A stretch of 47,331 bases of DNA from Sandaracinaceae bacterium (lineage in GTDB: Bacteria; Myxococcota_A; Polyangia; Polyangiales; Sandaracinaceae), in contig JAHBWG010000075.1 in NCBI GenBank assembly GCA_019637095.1, positions 1 to 47,331 of the forward strand, read 5' to 3'. Position 1 is the first letter of the stretch. Each line of letters starts with the position of its first letter. The position numbers were made by a program, and so were the translations under genes. Positions 3,001 to 43,808 of this stretch are shown here, piece after piece. The notes beneath the pieces were generated by a model that did no database searches, was not told where the DNA came from, and was given only the letters and a program-made list of their open reading frames with translations.

Positions 3001-3456
3001 ACCCCCCGCGCGCTCGTCGAGCAGCACGTTCGGCGGCGTCACGTCGCAGTGCACGAGCCCCGCGTCGTGCGCGTAGCCGAGCGCGTCGAGCAGCTCCGCG
3101 CCGATCCGCACGATCTCCCCGAGGTCGAGCCAGTCCACCGCGTCCTCGAGCGAGCGACCCTCGATGCGCTCGTAGACGAGGTACGGCTGGCCCTGCTCGC
3201 TCCAGCCGTGCTCGAGGAGCGCGACGACGTGCGGGTGCCGGAGGCGCGCGGCGAGCCGGGCCTCGCGCGCGAACCAGTGGCTCTCGAGCGCGCTGCCCTC
3301 CGCGCGCGCGAGCTTGAGCGCGCCGCCGAGCCCGGACTCCTCGTGCGTGGCCGCGTACACGACGCCGGCGCCGCCGCGTCCGAGCTGCTCTCCGAGACGC
3401 CACGGCCCGATGCGCCGCGCGGCGTGCTCCGGAGGCGGCTCGCTCGCGCCGCTCAT
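100..3456 (-). CDS. Ser/Thr protein kinase-like protein with ATPase and TPR regions
   Basis: 1118 aa. The start is the ATG at 3456, which overlaps the ridA stop as ATGA; the open frame runs further upstream but only over ridA. Residues about 15-290 form a kinase fold: glycine loop LGRGGAG (25-31), ALK lysine (48), catalytic loop HCDVTPPN (136-143) with Asp138, DFG (158-160) and GTPGYLSPE. The Arg before Asp is Cys and the catalytic-loop Lys is Thr, so it is a non-RD kinase with a changed loop. A middle AAA/STAND-like ATPase region has a Walker-B-like VLVFDDADG, but its Walker A reads DEGMGAS, with Ala where Lys is expected. The C-terminal third is TPR-like helical repeats. This order (kinase, ATPase, TPR) is common in myxobacterial signalling proteins. 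It is probably cytoplasmic; no membrane segment is seen. Kinase activity is uncertain. Confidence 0.9.
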   Translation of the reverse strand: MSGASEPPPEHAARRIGPWRLGEQLGRGGAGVVYAATHEESGLGGALKLARAEGSALESHWFAREARLAARLRHPHVVALLEHGWSEQGQPYLVYERIEGRSLEDAVDWLDLGEIVRIGAELLDALGYAHDAGLVHCDVTPPNVLLDERAGGAAKLIDFGLAKARDEASALRLAAGVQISGTPGYLSPEQARGACSPGPASDLFGCGAVLFRALTGYPPYGGANAMEIVHHTLTAAPLPLRPRQGLRAPARLAEVVERLIARDPEHRYPSAARARRAWLEAARAHTPASGTLRTSIARTPGLSSMETIHVEALASTPGERFVMHSTVRATPSAGLDRGAIRRAIHDAPLRRPEVLAQILGALLPEPRAIVGVRADEGMGASDVLEAARAALREAGVRVCFARGRASGPCAPFEALATAMLDAVGAQSLSPLRLAADRLMERVREVGEDPTGWGGDALIGGLVGVGPAGARGAATMEAFRVCEAVLAPSHRPVVLVFDDADGVDPESWEVARALVARPGGGVGLLYAGRERVLDGATIELGPPPEDALEAAWRAWCGASAPRPPGVERPADLRALAAMRARTGATSFEEHLARITPSERALLDAASVFGGDIPARGLVRVAMQLATPHAVGEEVVETLERERLLVRVEGSSARRERWMRLPSPGLRACLLEAMSPPKHALACGLAAQWLARSASDDSAATQARIARLAEAAGLPASAAYAWSEAARIELESGRLAGAAPYLAEALRVEAAHATEAVDPPRLWQAIAEAALDAGRPADADADAQRAEACVEPERPVLRARIAYTRADAAVQQGRLDDALAHLRAALDVLGPDGDPMERARSHALLGWVLGYRLGDNTEGIAHGRRALELAARLDVPAFRASLCGRLGANYLRAGDWDGQLQTNEDDLALSTRARDVAGIVRANINLGVCHHNRGALARARAHTEAAADLAARCGVTGAALIAHNNLAMIALDDGRDDDAAAQVERVLALAARTGLSRVLPETLVTSARLAIRRGALEAAEAALARATEAGDAADLEPAHRAWALYELARGDAAGACARMAAVLAGPELDPYERAQSRVTHAAALDALGRGADAERERVRADEVFTRLGADPALERRRWGE

Positions 3457-3839
3457 GCCTCGTCGCGGACCGCCGCGACCGCCTGGATCTCGACGAGGTA
3501 GCCGTGATGGAGCGTCGGCACCGGCACCACCGCGCGCGCCGGCCGGTGCGCCCCGAGCACCCTCGCGTACGCCGCGTTCACGCGAGGCCAGAGCGCGATG
3601 TCGGTGACGTACACGGTGACCGACAGGAGGCGGTCGAGATCGGAGCCCGCAGCCCGCAAGATCGCTTGCACGTTGCGGAGCGCGCGCTCGGTCTGCGCTT
3701 CGACGTCGCCGTGCGGCGCGCCAGGGTCGGCGGGGTCGATCGGCAGCTGCCCCGCGACGTACACCATCCCCCCGTGCGCGATCGCCTGCGCGTAGTGGCC
3801 GGCAGGCCTCGGGGCGTCGGGCGTCTCGACCGTCCGCAT
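3453..3839 (-). CDS. ridA: RidA family enamine/imine deaminase
   Basis: 128 aa, full length for the YjgF/YER057c/UK114 family. RidA proteins hydrolyse reactive 2-aminoacrylate and related enamines to ketoacids and ammonia, usually as trimers in the cytoplasm. Visible family marks are VYVAGQLPID near residue 27, the helix ERALRNVQAIL, and the C-terminal active-site strand RPARAVVPV with the conserved Arg, then VEIQAVAAV. ATG start at 3839. Its TGA overlaps the ATG of the downstream kinase gene, so the two are translationally coupled. Upstream lies the divergent region shared with the lipoprotein gene at 4034. The family assignment is firm; the physiological substrate is not shown by the sequence. 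Confidence 0.92.
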   Translation of the reverse strand: MRTVETPDAPRPAGHYAQAIAHGGMVYVAGQLPIDPADPGAPHGDVEAQTERALRNVQAILRAAGSDLDRLLSVTVYVTDIALWPRVNAAYARVLGAHRPARAVVPVPTLHHGYLVEIQAVAAVRDEA

Positions 3840-3890
3840 CCTCGTTCGATACCACGGGCCCGGCTCGGCAGGGGAGGCGTCGACTCACCG

Positions 3891-3950
3891 TGTCTCGAAA
3901 GAAGGCACAGTGTCTCGGTATGTCTCACCAATTTGGCCTGATACGAGACA
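3891..3950. promoter_or_regulatory. Array of four TGTCTC boxes (candidate operator)
   Basis: The hexamer TGTCTC occurs at 3891-3896, 3911-3916 and 3921-3926, and inverted (GAGACA) at 3945-3950. Three of the four extend to TGTCTCG. The direct copies start 20 and 10 bases apart, which places them on the same DNA face. The last two form an inverted repeat with an 18-base spacer. The array lies in the divergent region between ridA and the lipoprotein gene, in locally AT-richer sequence. A further palindrome, GTACC-GT-GGTAC, sits at 3987-3998. Binding by a regulator is inference. Confidence 0.5.
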
Positions 3951-4033
3951 CATGAGGTGCGTTTTCTCGCGCACTATCCCCCGGCTGTACCGTGGTACGG
4001 GAACTGAAGAAGGAATCGGTCGGGAGACGACCG

Positions 4034-5128
4034 ATGCGAACCACGACCCAGCTGACCGCGGCCTCGACGCTCTTGATCCTGGCCGGCTGTGCCGCCGACG
4101 TCTCCGAGCGTGGGTCGGGCACTTTGCGCGAGGGCCTCACCATCCTCGGCGCCGCGCCCGGTGCGCTCTCCGCGGCCTATCGGCGCGGGGACGTCGTCAT
4201 CTATCTCGAGGCGCTGCGCGGGCAGGCGACGCCGGAGATCTACCAGAACGATCCCGAGTCGCCGGCGTGGGAGATCGACGCGCGCTTCACCTCGGATCAG
4301 GGCCACGCGTTCTACGTCCGCCGCGGCGGCGACGCGTTCGTGGAGCCGCGCTGGGCGACGGAGCTCGAGCAGCAGGACGCGGACGCGCCGGCGGGGTCGA
4401 ACGCGCACCTGTTCGAGCTCGCGCTCGAGGCGGTGCGCGCGCTGCCGGGCGAGGTGGCCGCGCAGCTCGAGCCGGCGCTCGCCGCCGAGCTCGCCCCCGA
4501 GCTCGACGCGCTCACCGACTTCGGGCGGCAGGCGCCCGACCTCTACGCCGCGCAGGACGAGCGCGCGCGCGACGCGCTCCGCCGCGAGGGGCTGCTCGTC
4601 GAGCAGCCCGGCGGTGACGTGGCCTACGGGAGCCCGAGCGGCGCCGAGGGCAGCAACGTCTCGCAGAGCGGCGGCTACTACTACTACATCGAGCTGCGCG
4701 ACAAGCACATCTCCTACTCGCTCTTCCTCAACGGCCGTCACAGCGCGACGCGCGCGTTCCAGTGGCAGAACTCGTGGGTGCGGGTAGTCGACGCGTGCAA
4801 CCACGGGTCGTGCGCGAGCAACAGCAACATGGGGCAAGTCTGCTTGCTCCAGTACTACGACCGCGTCGTCGCGCTGACGCAGGCATGGACGCATCAGGCC
4901 TGTCGCACCGGCTACGATACGTGGTCGAACGGATCGGGCCACAACTGTCACGACGACAGCCGCGTGCAGCTCCGCAACTTCGTGTACGCCGATTGGAACA
5001 ACGGCTACCAGTACTGGTGCAACGACGGTGACAGCAGCGCGGACATCAGCGTCGGTCCTGGCGACCAGGGCGGCGCCCCGCGCTGCGACGCTGGCCGCAG
5101 CCGCGGCTACGTGCACCCCTGGCACTGA
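4034..5128 (+). CDS. Cys-rich lipoprotein of unknown function
   Basis: 364 aa from the ATG at 4034; a longer frame opens at 3992, but this start gives a clean lipoprotein signal (MRTTTQLTAASTLLILAGC, lipobox LAGC, Cys19) with GGGAGA upstream. Residues about 25-200 are charged and Ala/Glu-rich. The last ~150 residues are different: Tyr/Trp/Asn-rich, starting SQSGGYYYYIEL, with seven Cys and motifs such as WQNSWVRVVDAC and DWNNGYQYWC, suggesting a disulfide-stabilised exported domain. No family is recognised. It stands alone on the plus strand, preceded by the TGTCTC array and followed by the stem-loop cluster. It is probably anchored in the outer membrane or periplasm. Confidence 0.8.
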   Translation: MRTTTQLTAASTLLILAGCAADVSERGSGTLREGLTILGAAPGALSAAYRRGDVVIYLEALRGQATPEIYQNDPESPAWEIDARFTSDQGHAFYVRRGGDAFVEPRWATELEQQDADAPAGSNAHLFELALEAVRALPGEVAAQLEPALAAELAPELDALTDFGRQAPDLYAAQDERARDALRREGLLVEQPGGDVAYGSPSGAEGSNVSQSGGYYYYIELRDKHISYSLFLNGRHSATRAFQWQNSWVRVVDACNHGSCASNSNMGQVCLLQYYDRVVALTQAWTHQACRTGYDTWSNGSGHNCHDDSRVQLRNFVYADWNNGYQYWCNDGDSSADISVGPGDQGGAPRCDAGRSRGYVHPWH

Positions 5129-16382: not shown

Positions 16383-16476
16383 GGAGGCGCTCGACAGGCT
16401 GGTGCCGTCCCCGGTCTTCAAAACCGGTGTGGGGCAGGATGCTGTCCCGTGCGGGTTCGATTCCCGTGCGCCTCCG
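16383..16476 (+). tRNA. selC: tRNA-Sec (anticodon TCA)
   Basis: 94 bases, longer than ordinary tRNAs as expected for selenocysteine. The acceptor stem is 8 bp: GGAGGCGC (16383-16390) with GCGCCTCC (16468-16475), followed by discriminator G16476. The anticodon arm is CCGGT (16411-16415), loop CTTCAAA, ACCGG (16423-16427), with anticodon TCA at 16418-16420 reading UGA. A long variable arm covers about 16428-16450. The T arm is GCGGG-TTCGATT-CCCGT (16451-16467). The 3' CCA is not encoded. It sits between selB (divergent) and asnS (same strand, 41 bases downstream). Confidence 0.96.
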
Positions 16477-17958: not shown

Positions 17959-18882
17959 TCATTTCGTCATTCTGCCGCCGGCGAACGGCGGGGGCACGGG
18001 CTCGTCGCGGAGCTGTGTGGCGAGCAGGTCCGCGAACGCGCGGACCTTCACGGGCACCGCGTGCATCGCCGGGTAGACCGCGTAGACGGCGCCCGCGGTG
18101 AACGACCAGTCGGGGAGCACCCACGCGACCTGCTCGAGGTCCGCGCCGCGGAACACCACGCACGGCAAGAGGCCGATGCCCGCGCCGGCCACCACGAGCG
18201 AGCGCAGGAAGAGCAGGTCGTCGGACGACGCGGGCCCCGTCACGTCGACCGCCTCCGTCACGCCGCTCGGGCCCTCGAGCCGCCACGTCACGCGCTGCCC
18301 ACGAAACGGGAGGCAGCGGTGCGAGGCGAGGTCCGCGACGCGCGCGGGCTCGCCGTGCTCGGCGAGGTACGCGCGCGAGGCGAAGAGCCGGAACGTCGAG
18401 CCGGCGAGCTTGCGCGCGACGAGCGAGCTGTCGGCGAGCGTGCCCGCGCGGATCGCGAGGTCGTAGCCGCCTGCGACGAGGTCGACCTTGTCGTTGGTGA
18501 CGTTGACCTCGACCTGGACCGCGGGGTAGCGGGCCACGTACTGGGCGACGACCGCGCCGATCGCGTCGATGTCTGGCGGGACGGTCACGCGCAGCAGGCC
18601 GCGCGGCTCGTCCTGCCCCTCGTGGAGGGCGCGCGCCGCGTCCTCGACCTCGAAGAGCGCGGGGGCCACGCGCGCGTGGTAAGCGCGCCCCTCCTCGGTC
18701 AGGCGGAGCTGTCGCGTCGTGCGCACGAGGAGCGGGAGGCCGAGCGCCTCCTCGAGCCGCGACACGTGGCGGCTGACGGTGGACTTCGGCATGCCGAGCC
18801 GGTCCGCCGCCTTGGTGAAGCTGCCCTGGCGCACCACCTCGACGAAGGTCGCCACGAGCGCGAGATCGGCGGTTGTCGTCAT
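17959..18882 (-). CDS. LysR family transcriptional regulator
   Basis: 307 aa from the ATG at 18882. A GTG at 18900 would place a candidate operator inside the gene, so the ATG is preferred. The N-terminal winged helix-turn-helix is ALVATFVEVVRQGSFTKAAD then LGMPKSTVSRHVSRLEEALG. The rest is the periplasmic-binding-like effector domain (RVTVPPDIDAIGAVVAQYVA, GYDLAIRAGTLADSSLVARK, GAGIGLLPCVVFRGADL), typical of the one-gene-apart CrgA/DhcR-like branch. It is divergent from a DoxX-like gene, the standard arrangement for a LysR regulator and its target. It ends 25 bases from asnS, convergent. Confidence 0.94.
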   Translation of the reverse strand: MTTTADLALVATFVEVVRQGSFTKAADRLGMPKSTVSRHVSRLEEALGLPLLVRTTRQLRLTEEGRAYHARVAPALFEVEDAARALHEGQDEPRGLLRVTVPPDIDAIGAVVAQYVARYPAVQVEVNVTNDKVDLVAGGYDLAIRAGTLADSSLVARKLAGSTFRLFASRAYLAEHGEPARVADLASHRCLPFRGQRVTWRLEGPSGVTEAVDVTGPASSDDLLFLRSLVVAGAGIGLLPCVVFRGADLEQVAWVLPDWSFTAGAVYAVYPAMHAVPVKVRAFADLLATQLRDEPVPPPFAGGRMTK

Positions 18883-18883
18883 C

Positions 18884-18928
18884 GCAACGGTGAGTTGCAC
18901 TCTGGGGCGCTACTCGCGAAGTGGCAAC
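18884..18928. promoter_or_regulatory. Candidate LysR operator (GCAAC/GTTGC half-sites)
   Basis: GCAAC at 18884-18888 and GTTGC at 18894-18898 form a 15-base inverted repeat with a 5-base centre, the size typical of LysR recognition sites. A third half-site, GCAAC, lies at 18924-18928, as expected for an activation site nearer the promoter. The site sits right before the lysR ATG and 38 bases before the doxX-like start. Assignment rests on symmetry and position. Confidence 0.45.
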
Positions 18929-18965
18929 GAGCCGAGGTTCTCCGACGAAAAGGAGGGCCTCGATC

Positions 18966-19406
18966 ATGCACAACGTCCTGTCACACCTGCCCACCGCGTC
19001 GCGCGTCCTGCTCGGCCTCGCGTTCCTCGTCTTCGGTCTGAACGGTTTCCTCGGCTTCCTGCCCATGCCGCCGCACGAGGGCGCCGCCGGCGCGTTCCTC
19101 GGCGCGCTCGCCGCGTCGGGCTACATGTTCCCGCTCATCAAGGGCACCGAGGTCGTCGTGGGCCTCCTGCTCCTCTCGAACCGCTTCGTGCCGCTCGCGC
19201 TGACGATCCTCGCGCCGGTCACGGTGAACATCGTGCTGTTCCACGCGGTGCTCGAGCCGGCCGGGATCGTGCTCCCGCTCGTGCTCGCGGCGCTCCAGCT
19301 GCACCTCGCGTGGGCACACCGGGCGAGCTTCGCGGGCGTGCTGTCGGCCCGCTCGGCGCCCGCTCCCGCGCGCGCGCTCGAGGCGAGACGCCCCGCCACC
19401 GCGTGA
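18966..19406 (+). CDS. DoxX-like membrane protein
   Basis: 146 aa from the ATG at 18966, with AGGAGG ending 9 bases before it. Four hydrophobic segments are visible: LLGLAFLVFGLNGFLGFL, PLIKGTEVVVGLLLL, PLALTILAPVTVNIVLFHAV and GIVLPLVLAALQLHLAW. The pattern VLLGLAFLVFGLNGF followed by a second segment with KGTEVVVGLLLL is that of the DoxX/DoxD-like family of small inner-membrane proteins, whose role is mostly unknown, though some are linked to redox or sulfur chemistry. The C-terminal ~25 residues are Ala/Arg-rich. It is divergent from, and probably controlled by, the LysR regulator at 17959. Confidence 0.85.
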   Translation: MHNVLSHLPTASRVLLGLAFLVFGLNGFLGFLPMPPHEGAAGAFLGALAASGYMFPLIKGTEVVVGLLLLSNRFVPLALTILAPVTVNIVLFHAVLEPAGIVLPLVLAALQLHLAWAHRASFAGVLSARSAPAPARALEARRPATA

Positions 19407-42878: not shown

Positions 42879-43808
42879 ATGGCCAAGAGGGGCGGCGAGA
42901 CGAGGTCTCGCACGGCGAGCAAGAAGTCCGGCAAGACGAAGGTCTCGGCGACCAAGGCTGCCGCAAAGAGACCCGCCGCGAAGTCGAGCGCCGCGCCGAA
43001 GAAGAAGGCTGCAGCCAGGGCCGCGCCGAAGAAGGCCGCGCCGAAGAAGGCCGCGCCGAAGAAGGCCGCGCCGAAGAAGGCCGCGCCGAAGAAGGCCGCG
43101 CCGAAGAAGGCTGCGCCGAAGAAGGCCGCGCCGAAGAAGGCTGCGCCGAAGAAGGCTGCGCCGAAGAAGGCTGCGCCGAAGAGCGCCGCGGCCACGCCGG
43201 CCCCGAAGAAGTCGGCGCCGAAGAAGGCCACCCCGTCCGCTCCGTCCAAGACGGCCGCGCCTCCGAAGGCGGAGGCGAAGAAGAGGCCCGACGCGCCCAA
43301 GGTCGCGAAGGCGGAGGCGCCGCGCCGGCCCTCGAAGCCGTCCAACGGCGGCGAGGCGCGTGAGCATCGCTCCTCCGAGGTGCCGCCCGCGCTCGCCGCG
43401 GAGCAGCCGGTGCCGGAGGGCTGGGGCGCGCACCCCGACGCGGGCCTCACGAGCCGACAGCTCACGTACCTCTACAACCGCCTCGTCGAGGAGCGCCGCC
43501 GCAAGGTGGACGAGATGCAGCGGCACATGGAGGAGGCGCTCGGCGACGCCGGCGTCATGCCCGACGAGACGGACATGGCGCAGCGCCACACCGAGCAGGC
43601 GTACCTGATCCGCTTCGCGGACAAGGAGCGCAAGCTCCTGAACGAGATCGAGGCCGCGCTCGAGAAGCTGCGCCTCAACGACTACGGCGTGTGCGAAGGC
43701 ACCGAGGAGCCGATCGGCTTCAAGCGGCTCGAGCTTCGTCCGTGGACCCGCTACAGCGTGGCGTACAAAGAGCAGATCGAGCGCGAGCGCAGCCAGCACC
43801 GACGCTGA
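42879..43808 (+). CDS. DksA/TraR-like protein with histone H1-like N-terminal tail and lost zinc ligands
   Basis: 309 aa, ATG at 42879 with GGGAGAG just upstream. Residues 1-~150 are Lys/Ala/Pro-rich, with ten AAPKK copies plus one AAPKS, like histone H1 or AlgP tails that bind DNA. Residues ~185-309 are DksA-like: a coiled coil (LYNRLVEERRRKVDEMQRHM), the tip motif DETDMA (229-234) matching the DxxDxA needed to act in the RNA polymerase secondary channel, then a second helix. The zinc finger is degenerate: Cys272 remains in VCEGTEEPIG, but the three other Cys are replaced (T, S and K in RPWTRYSVAYKEQ). A DNA-tethered RNA polymerase regulator is a reasonable inference. rpmG follows after 52 bases. 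Confidence 0.88.
   Translation: MAKRGGETRSRTASKKSGKTKVSATKAAAKRPAAKSSAAPKKKAAARAAPKKAAPKKAAPKKAAPKKAAPKKAAPKKAAPKKAAPKKAAPKKAAPKKAAPKSAAATPAPKKSAPKKATPSAPSKTAAPPKAEAKKRPDAPKVAKAEAPRRPSKPSNGGEAREHRSSEVPPALAAEQPVPEGWGAHPDAGLTSRQLTYLYNRLVEERRRKVDEMQRHMEEALGDAGVMPDETDMAQRHTEQAYLIRFADKERKLLNEIEAALEKLRLNDYGVCEGTEEPIGFKRLELRPWTRYSVAYKEQIERERSQHRR
43020..43184 (+). repeat. Tandem 15-bp repeats encoding AAPKK
   Basis: Ten exact-length copies of gccgcgccgaagaag (the third base of the first codon varies between c and t) plus an eleventh ending in agc, in frame with the DksA-like gene. Near-identity at the DNA level suggests recent expansion, so copy number may vary among strains. Confidence 0.9.

Follow-up and report, generated by a model that had tools for sequence, protein, structure and literature searches.

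A sigma-54 promoter requires an enhancer-binding protein (EBP) bound upstream, and the TGC of its -12 element is near-invariant. The CRP/Fnr-type regulator MrpC has the site GTGTC-N8-GACAC. In Pseudomonas, the TyrR-like EBP GcsR of gcvH2 binds three 18-bp tandem dyads, TGTAACG-N4-CGTTCCG (PMC4894688). Several EBP motifs of Desulfovibrio vulgaris consist of TGT and ACA separated by 9, 11 or 12 bp; the sites lie mostly at most 100 nt from the promoter, and the regulons are small (PMC4641369). In Myxococcus xanthus, the EBP Nla28 uses tandem 8-bp half-sites CT(C/G)CG(C/G)AG upstream of sigma-54 promoters (PMC9765219, PMC7910581), and 80-150 bp is given as the distance of EBP upstream activating sequences (UAS) (PMC7910581).

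The window analyzed here is a stretch of 47,331 nucleotides from a Sandaracinaceae bacterium (Myxococcota; high G+C genome of 9.25 Mb in 197 contigs). Between a divergent RidA-family gene and a predicted lipoprotein gene it carries an array of TGTCTC boxes, which most likely adds a new example to a known type of bacterial switch. Judging from its sequence features, the array is probably where an NtrC-type activator binds to switch on the lipoprotein gene at 4034, serving as the upstream enhancer (UAS) of a sigma-54 promoter. As in the GcsR system, three tandem dyads of near-equal length, starting with TGT, lie upstream of a putative RpoN promoter; the window dyads, however, are 17 instead of 18 bp long, less symmetrical, spelled with other letters and placed before another target gene, and none of them conforms to the 18-bp TGTAACG-N4-CGTTCCG-like sites of the GcsR/TyrR type. 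With the Desulfovibrio sites they share a TGT-N11-ACA-like form and a position mostly within 100 nt of the promoter, but lineage and targets differ, and the likeness is one of motif geometry, orthology aside. Nla28 is a myxobacterial EBP whose repeated 8-bp half-sites invite comparison, though their letters differ: inspection of 3880-3960 by eye for its half-site with at most two mismatches gave CTCGAAAG as the closest, with three. The distance of the putative UAS in the window, 42-102 bases, is shorter than the 80-150 bp of the Myxococcus paper, which counts against the enhancer reading. A GTGTC half-site also recalls MrpC, and direct reading of 3880-3960 found no TGTC-N8-GACA. The coordinates of the features are collected in Table 1. 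Elsewhere, the window contains a selenocysteine tRNA gene (16383-16475, +) and a 15-bp tandem repeat with the core AAGAAGGC in about ten copies (43027-43170).

Table 1. Features at the array locus, in window coordinates
Feature	Position	Strand	Remarks
Divergent RidA-family gene (Ribonuc_L-PSP)	3453-3839	-	Pfam PF01042, E 2.3e-33; unlikely target
Enhancer dyad 1 (putative), TGTCTCGAAAGAAGGCA	3891-3907	+	Second-best window match of the 17-bp model; in composite match
Enhancer dyad 2 (putative), TGTCTCGGTATGTCTCA	3911-3927	+	Weakest dyad; holds the third direct TGTCTC (3921-3926)
Enhancer dyad 3 (putative), TGGCCTGATACGAGACA	3934-3950	.	Best-scoring dyad; inverted TGTCTC at 3945-3950
Candidate sigma-54 -24/-12 element, TGGTACGGGAACTGAA	3993-4008	+	GG at -24 present; -12 reads TGA where TGC is usual
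Probable target gene (predicted lipoprotein, 364 aa)	4034-5128	+	ATG at 4034; lipobox ...LILAGC

A recount of the boxes returned exactly the four TGTCTC copies and the start spacings of 20, 10 and 24 bases of the original prediction, with starts at 3891, 3911 and 3921 on the plus strand and 3945 on the minus strand (spans 3891-3896, 3911-3916, 3921-3926 and 3945-3950). Three of the four boxes lie within the 8-mer GTGTCTCG (3890-3897 and 3910-3917) or its reverse complement CGAGACAC (3944-3951). The hexamer occurs six times in the whole window against 19.7 copies expected from shuffles, and 228 times in 2,369,072 bases of the same genome, where the array is its sole cluster of at least four copies in 60 bases; about 2e-5 such clusters would be expected by chance per 9.25 Mb. 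Clusters of this density were found for 5 of 910 hexamers as rare or rarer in the 2.37 Mb sample, two of the five being perfect tandem repeats. The TGTCTC cluster is real and unusual, yet it is not the sole such place and was picked among many words. Clustered boxes in other promoters of the genome, which the original prediction had proposed to look for, did not emerge: GTGTCTCG matched 163 times genome-wide versus 94 for the reversed control, giving no genome-wide clustered promoter motif, and direct TGTCTC pairs separated by 2-32 bases were present at only three other places. TGTCTC was also considered as a genome-wide intergenic motif, since 52 of 159 copies, sampled around GTGTCTCG, are intergenic; other words of matching composition and rarity are just as biased, and the idea was dropped. 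A literature search on the motif letters returned unrelated papers only.

The predicted lipoprotein has no match in Pfam, NCBIfam or PHROG, and its family, from Myxococcota, has conserved residues that include HS.T, CNHG.C and GH.CHDD. Its AlphaFold2 model (mean pLDDT 72) is weak in the conserved C-terminal part; compared with PDB folds it gave no match at E<=0.001, and the sequence profile found nothing better than E 0.49 among PDB sequences. In the literature searched, which covers few subscription journals, there was no paper on this family or its promoters. Homologues occur in 9 of the 56 genomes searched, the own genome counted, and at 18 loci of the GTDB collection. Two further paralogues of the own genome lie about 10 kb apart on one contig (C187 of G000; L084:7964-9067 and 18040-19179), the first preceded by a gene whose end resembles a receiver domain. 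Homologues from low-G+C Myxococcota MAGs (L103, L104, L105, L107, L109, L110) are longer at the C terminus, and in L103 the protein carries a pre-peptidase C-terminal domain. L107:3820-7764 has a tandem pair of homologues, and an FHA-GAF EBP is encoded about 3 kb beyond it on the opposite strand.

Upstream of these homologues no TGTCTC array was found, only single copies within 600 bases upstream of two of them (L005 and L011). Their arrays use other words: TGGTCTG in one own-genome paralogue, GGTTCAG-N3-CTGAACC in family f7, and TGTCCA...TTAGACA or TGTACA...TGTACA in low-G+C genomes. The common frame of all of them is an imperfect 17-bp dyad, mostly repeated at 18-24 bases where there are several. 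The four hexamers of the window likewise appear to be halves of three imperfect 17-bp dyads, spaced by 20 and 23 bases, with the dyads as the functional units. A symmetric 17-bp model (consensus TGTTCAGAATCTGAACA) was built from other promoters, the window excluded, starting with 15 sites hand-picked from two lineages (f7 and low-G+C). Its three best window matches start exactly at 3934, 3891 and 3911, and their scores sum to 24.0 against 6.7 (sd 4.7) for shuffles, p 0.003 being the floor of 300 shuffles. The leave-one-out test is blind only for the window and for L010, L013, L101, L102, L106 and L108 (p 0.01-0.02 each, floor 0.01); L112 was omitted from the dyad-model analysis. Of 223 own-genome promoters, 4 reach the score of the window: those of the two paralogues, which were among the training promoters, one paralogue promoter read in the opposite direction, and the promoter of a lipoprotein amidase gene. 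Once own-genome sites were removed from the model, 12 of 223 control promoters reached that score, the paralogue promoters among them, so the cross-lineage evidence alone is modest. The window dyads, dyad 2 above all, are also poor palindromes, which counts against an enhancer. The mutual identity of three similar 17-mers was discarded as evidence, since the window value, reached by 43 of 1500 shuffles, is also reached by 86 of 225 real GC-rich promoters of the own genome.

Between the array and the start codon lies the candidate -24/-12 element of Table 1, a type of element whose general form is GG...GC with 10 intervening bases. It scores 7.9, above every other site on the two strands of 3840-4033, with 1.6 as the top value of the minus strand; it is nevertheless weak, with a shuffle p of 0.033 and 16% of 229 own-genome control promoters scoring as high. 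Sigma-54-like elements with shuffle p<=0.05 are present in 19 of 22 homologue promoters across Myxococcota, the exceptions being L108 (0.06), L012 (0.07) and L112 (0.46), and 18 of the 22 exceed the 90th percentile of the 229 own-genome promoters. These elements, for instance TTGGCATAGCAATTGCT in L105, TTGGCATTGCATTTGCA in L110 and ATGGCCTGGGCGTTGCG in the paralogue L010, are sited between array and start codon, and those of both paralogues are better than that of the window. Not among the 22 promoters are L113 and L114, where the match covered just the C-terminal part of the gene close to the contig start; L117, whose lipoprotein start is not clear; and L003, which is almost identical to L101. 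Loci that repeat a gene were left aside as well: L002, L004-L008 and L014 are the same genes as L101, L102, L106, L111, L112, L115 and L118, and L016-L018 are second pieces of such genes.

The spacing of these parts is shared with the paralogues. Each of the two own-genome paralogues has three dyads, spaced by 18/23 and 19/23 bases as compared with 20/23 in the window, and in all three promoters 42 bases separate dyad 3 from the -24 element, with the start codon next in the window. The corresponding gap measures 41 bases in L101 and the distant L009 and ranges from about 27 to 97 in other homologues; the fixed gap is therefore a trait of the close family, not of all members. The dyads and the sigma-54-like elements were searched for independently, yet the values 23 and 42 recur in the window and both paralogues. 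A composite model (three dyads at spacings of 17-21 and 22-24, a gap of 40-42 and a -24/-12 element) was trained on the two paralogues and one Sandaracinaceae homologue, with the window left out. Its spacing ranges were fixed after the window had been seen, though almost identical ranges would follow from the paralogues by themselves (18/23/42 and 19/23/42). The window scored 52.8, whereas the best unrelated place scored 19.7 in 1.17 Mb and 22.6 in 2.37 Mb on both strands; matches of 25-30 in the 2.37 Mb are opposite-strand readings of the paralogue arrays. The shared geometry and the composite score are the strongest evidence for the putative enhancer. Conservation upstream of orthologues, on which the original prediction had staked the boxes, thus holds for the architecture of dyads, spacing and gap, and fails for the letters TGTCTC: by these comparisons, the layout is kept in related genes while the box letters have drifted.

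Other explanations of the array fit these observations less well. A protein that recognizes direct repeats would be well served by the three direct TGTCTC copies, which start 20 and 10 bases apart. The array could be an operator to which an ordinary activator or repressor other than an EBP binds cooperatively, for example an OmpR/PhoB-type response regulator on 10-bp direct repeats, at a sigma-70-type promoter of the lipoprotein gene. We consider this unlikely, as no sigma-70-like promoter was found in 3800-4100 and the paralogues have kept the 17-bp dyads together with the sigma-54-like element but not the hexamers in direct orientation. That the boxes are a chance cluster or a relic devoid of present function is very improbable. 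Clusters this tight do occur in the 2.37 Mb for four other rare hexamers, TGTCTC itself is not kept in orthologues, and the degenerate -12 element could mean a decayed promoter; a geometry that agrees exactly with the paralogues, 23 and 42 bases in each case, nevertheless speaks against it.

Control of the divergent RidA-family gene, or of both genes, is very improbable too. The array lies 52-111 bases from the RidA start codon and enhancers function in either orientation, but the best sigma-54-like score in that direction is 1.6 versus 7.9 towards the lipoprotein gene, which is also the constant neighbor of the arrays in the paralogues and homologues examined. What is retained of the cooperative operator originally proposed is a regulatory element before the lipoprotein gene, with several sites at helical spacing; the operator itself gives way to a probable sigma-54 enhancer that appears to have three dyads as its units.

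The genome encodes one RpoN (a single match to the RpoN DNA-binding domain) and has 72 Sigma54_activat matches, about 60 of them strong, corresponding to some 60-70 candidate activators. Since the array is combined with a sigma-54-like element, published EBP precedents and the presence of RpoN and EBPs in the genome, the best reading of 3891-3950 is a site for three EBP dimers. Three dimers of an NtrC-type EBP, with an AAA+ and a Fis-type DNA-binding domain, would occupy the 17-bp dyads, one on each, two turns apart and facing much the same side of the helix. Once activated, they would form an ATPase ring, reach over the 42-base gap by a short loop and remodel sigma-54 RNA polymerase on the -24/-12 element. 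What the sequences show is the sites, their geometry and its recurrence in two paralogues, the sigma-54-like elements of the family, and RpoN with many EBPs in the genome; that a particular EBP would bind in response to a signal, and that the -12 element would work in spite of its imperfect letters, we infer. A tblastn search with one EBP detected none in the window and none around its paralogues. EBPs within about 5 kb of homologues were seen in one low-G+C clade (FHA-GAF-AAA-Fis; L103, L107 and L113) and at L106, too few to be counted as evidence. On another contig of the own genome (C165 of G000), two GTGTCTC copies, spaced by 21 bases, come after an FHA-EBP gene (L081:8059-9981); next is a strong sigma-54-like element, TGGCCCGCGCCTTGCC, ahead of genes for an FHA protein and a Ser/Thr kinase. 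This pair was absent from the composite scan, and the FHA-EBP therefore remains a lead as regulator.

Related dyads are found beyond the lipoprotein family. The exact palindrome GTTCAGNNNCTGAAC occurs nine times in one f7 genome (G038) against none for the reversed control, and 0-2 times in most other genomes. Arrays of GTTCAG-N3-CTGAAC mark 11 loci outside the family (L119-L123, L126, L127, L129-L132) in five f7 genomes (G038, G015, G033, G028 and G022). The gene that follows codes in most cases for a protein whose start resembles a signal peptide; by eye, 5 of the 11 carry a phospholipase-like CxxHD motif and 5 are lipase-like, while Pfam recognizes almost none of them. Sigma-54-like elements with p<=0.03 follow the palindrome at 8 of the 11 loci. 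These data suggest a regulon of secreted, possibly lytic proteins, which may serve predation. In a separate observation, a predicted lipoprotein with an N-acetylmuramoyl-L-alanine amidase domain (L058:2872-4287, -) has a promoter that scores highly with the dyad model and contains a sigma-54-like element.

Tentatively, it is possible that one old class of EBPs across Myxococcota controls secreted lytic proteins for feeding on other cells, comprising the orphan lipoproteins, CxxHD phospholipase-like and lipase-like hydrolases and perhaps a lipoprotein amidase, with a fixed layout of about 20/23/42 in the lipoprotein family and drifting half-sites (TGTCTCG, TGGTCTG, GGTTCAG, TGTCCAA). A fixed layout with drifting half-sites is the pattern that co-evolution of sites and activator specificity, separately in each lineage, should produce. 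Within the set of homologous promoters, layout can be compared with half-site letters, making it a natural data set on the evolution of EBP specificity. If the enhancer reading is right, it would offer a testable entry into the control of a family of secreted proteins of unknown function in poorly studied, uncultured Myxococcota.
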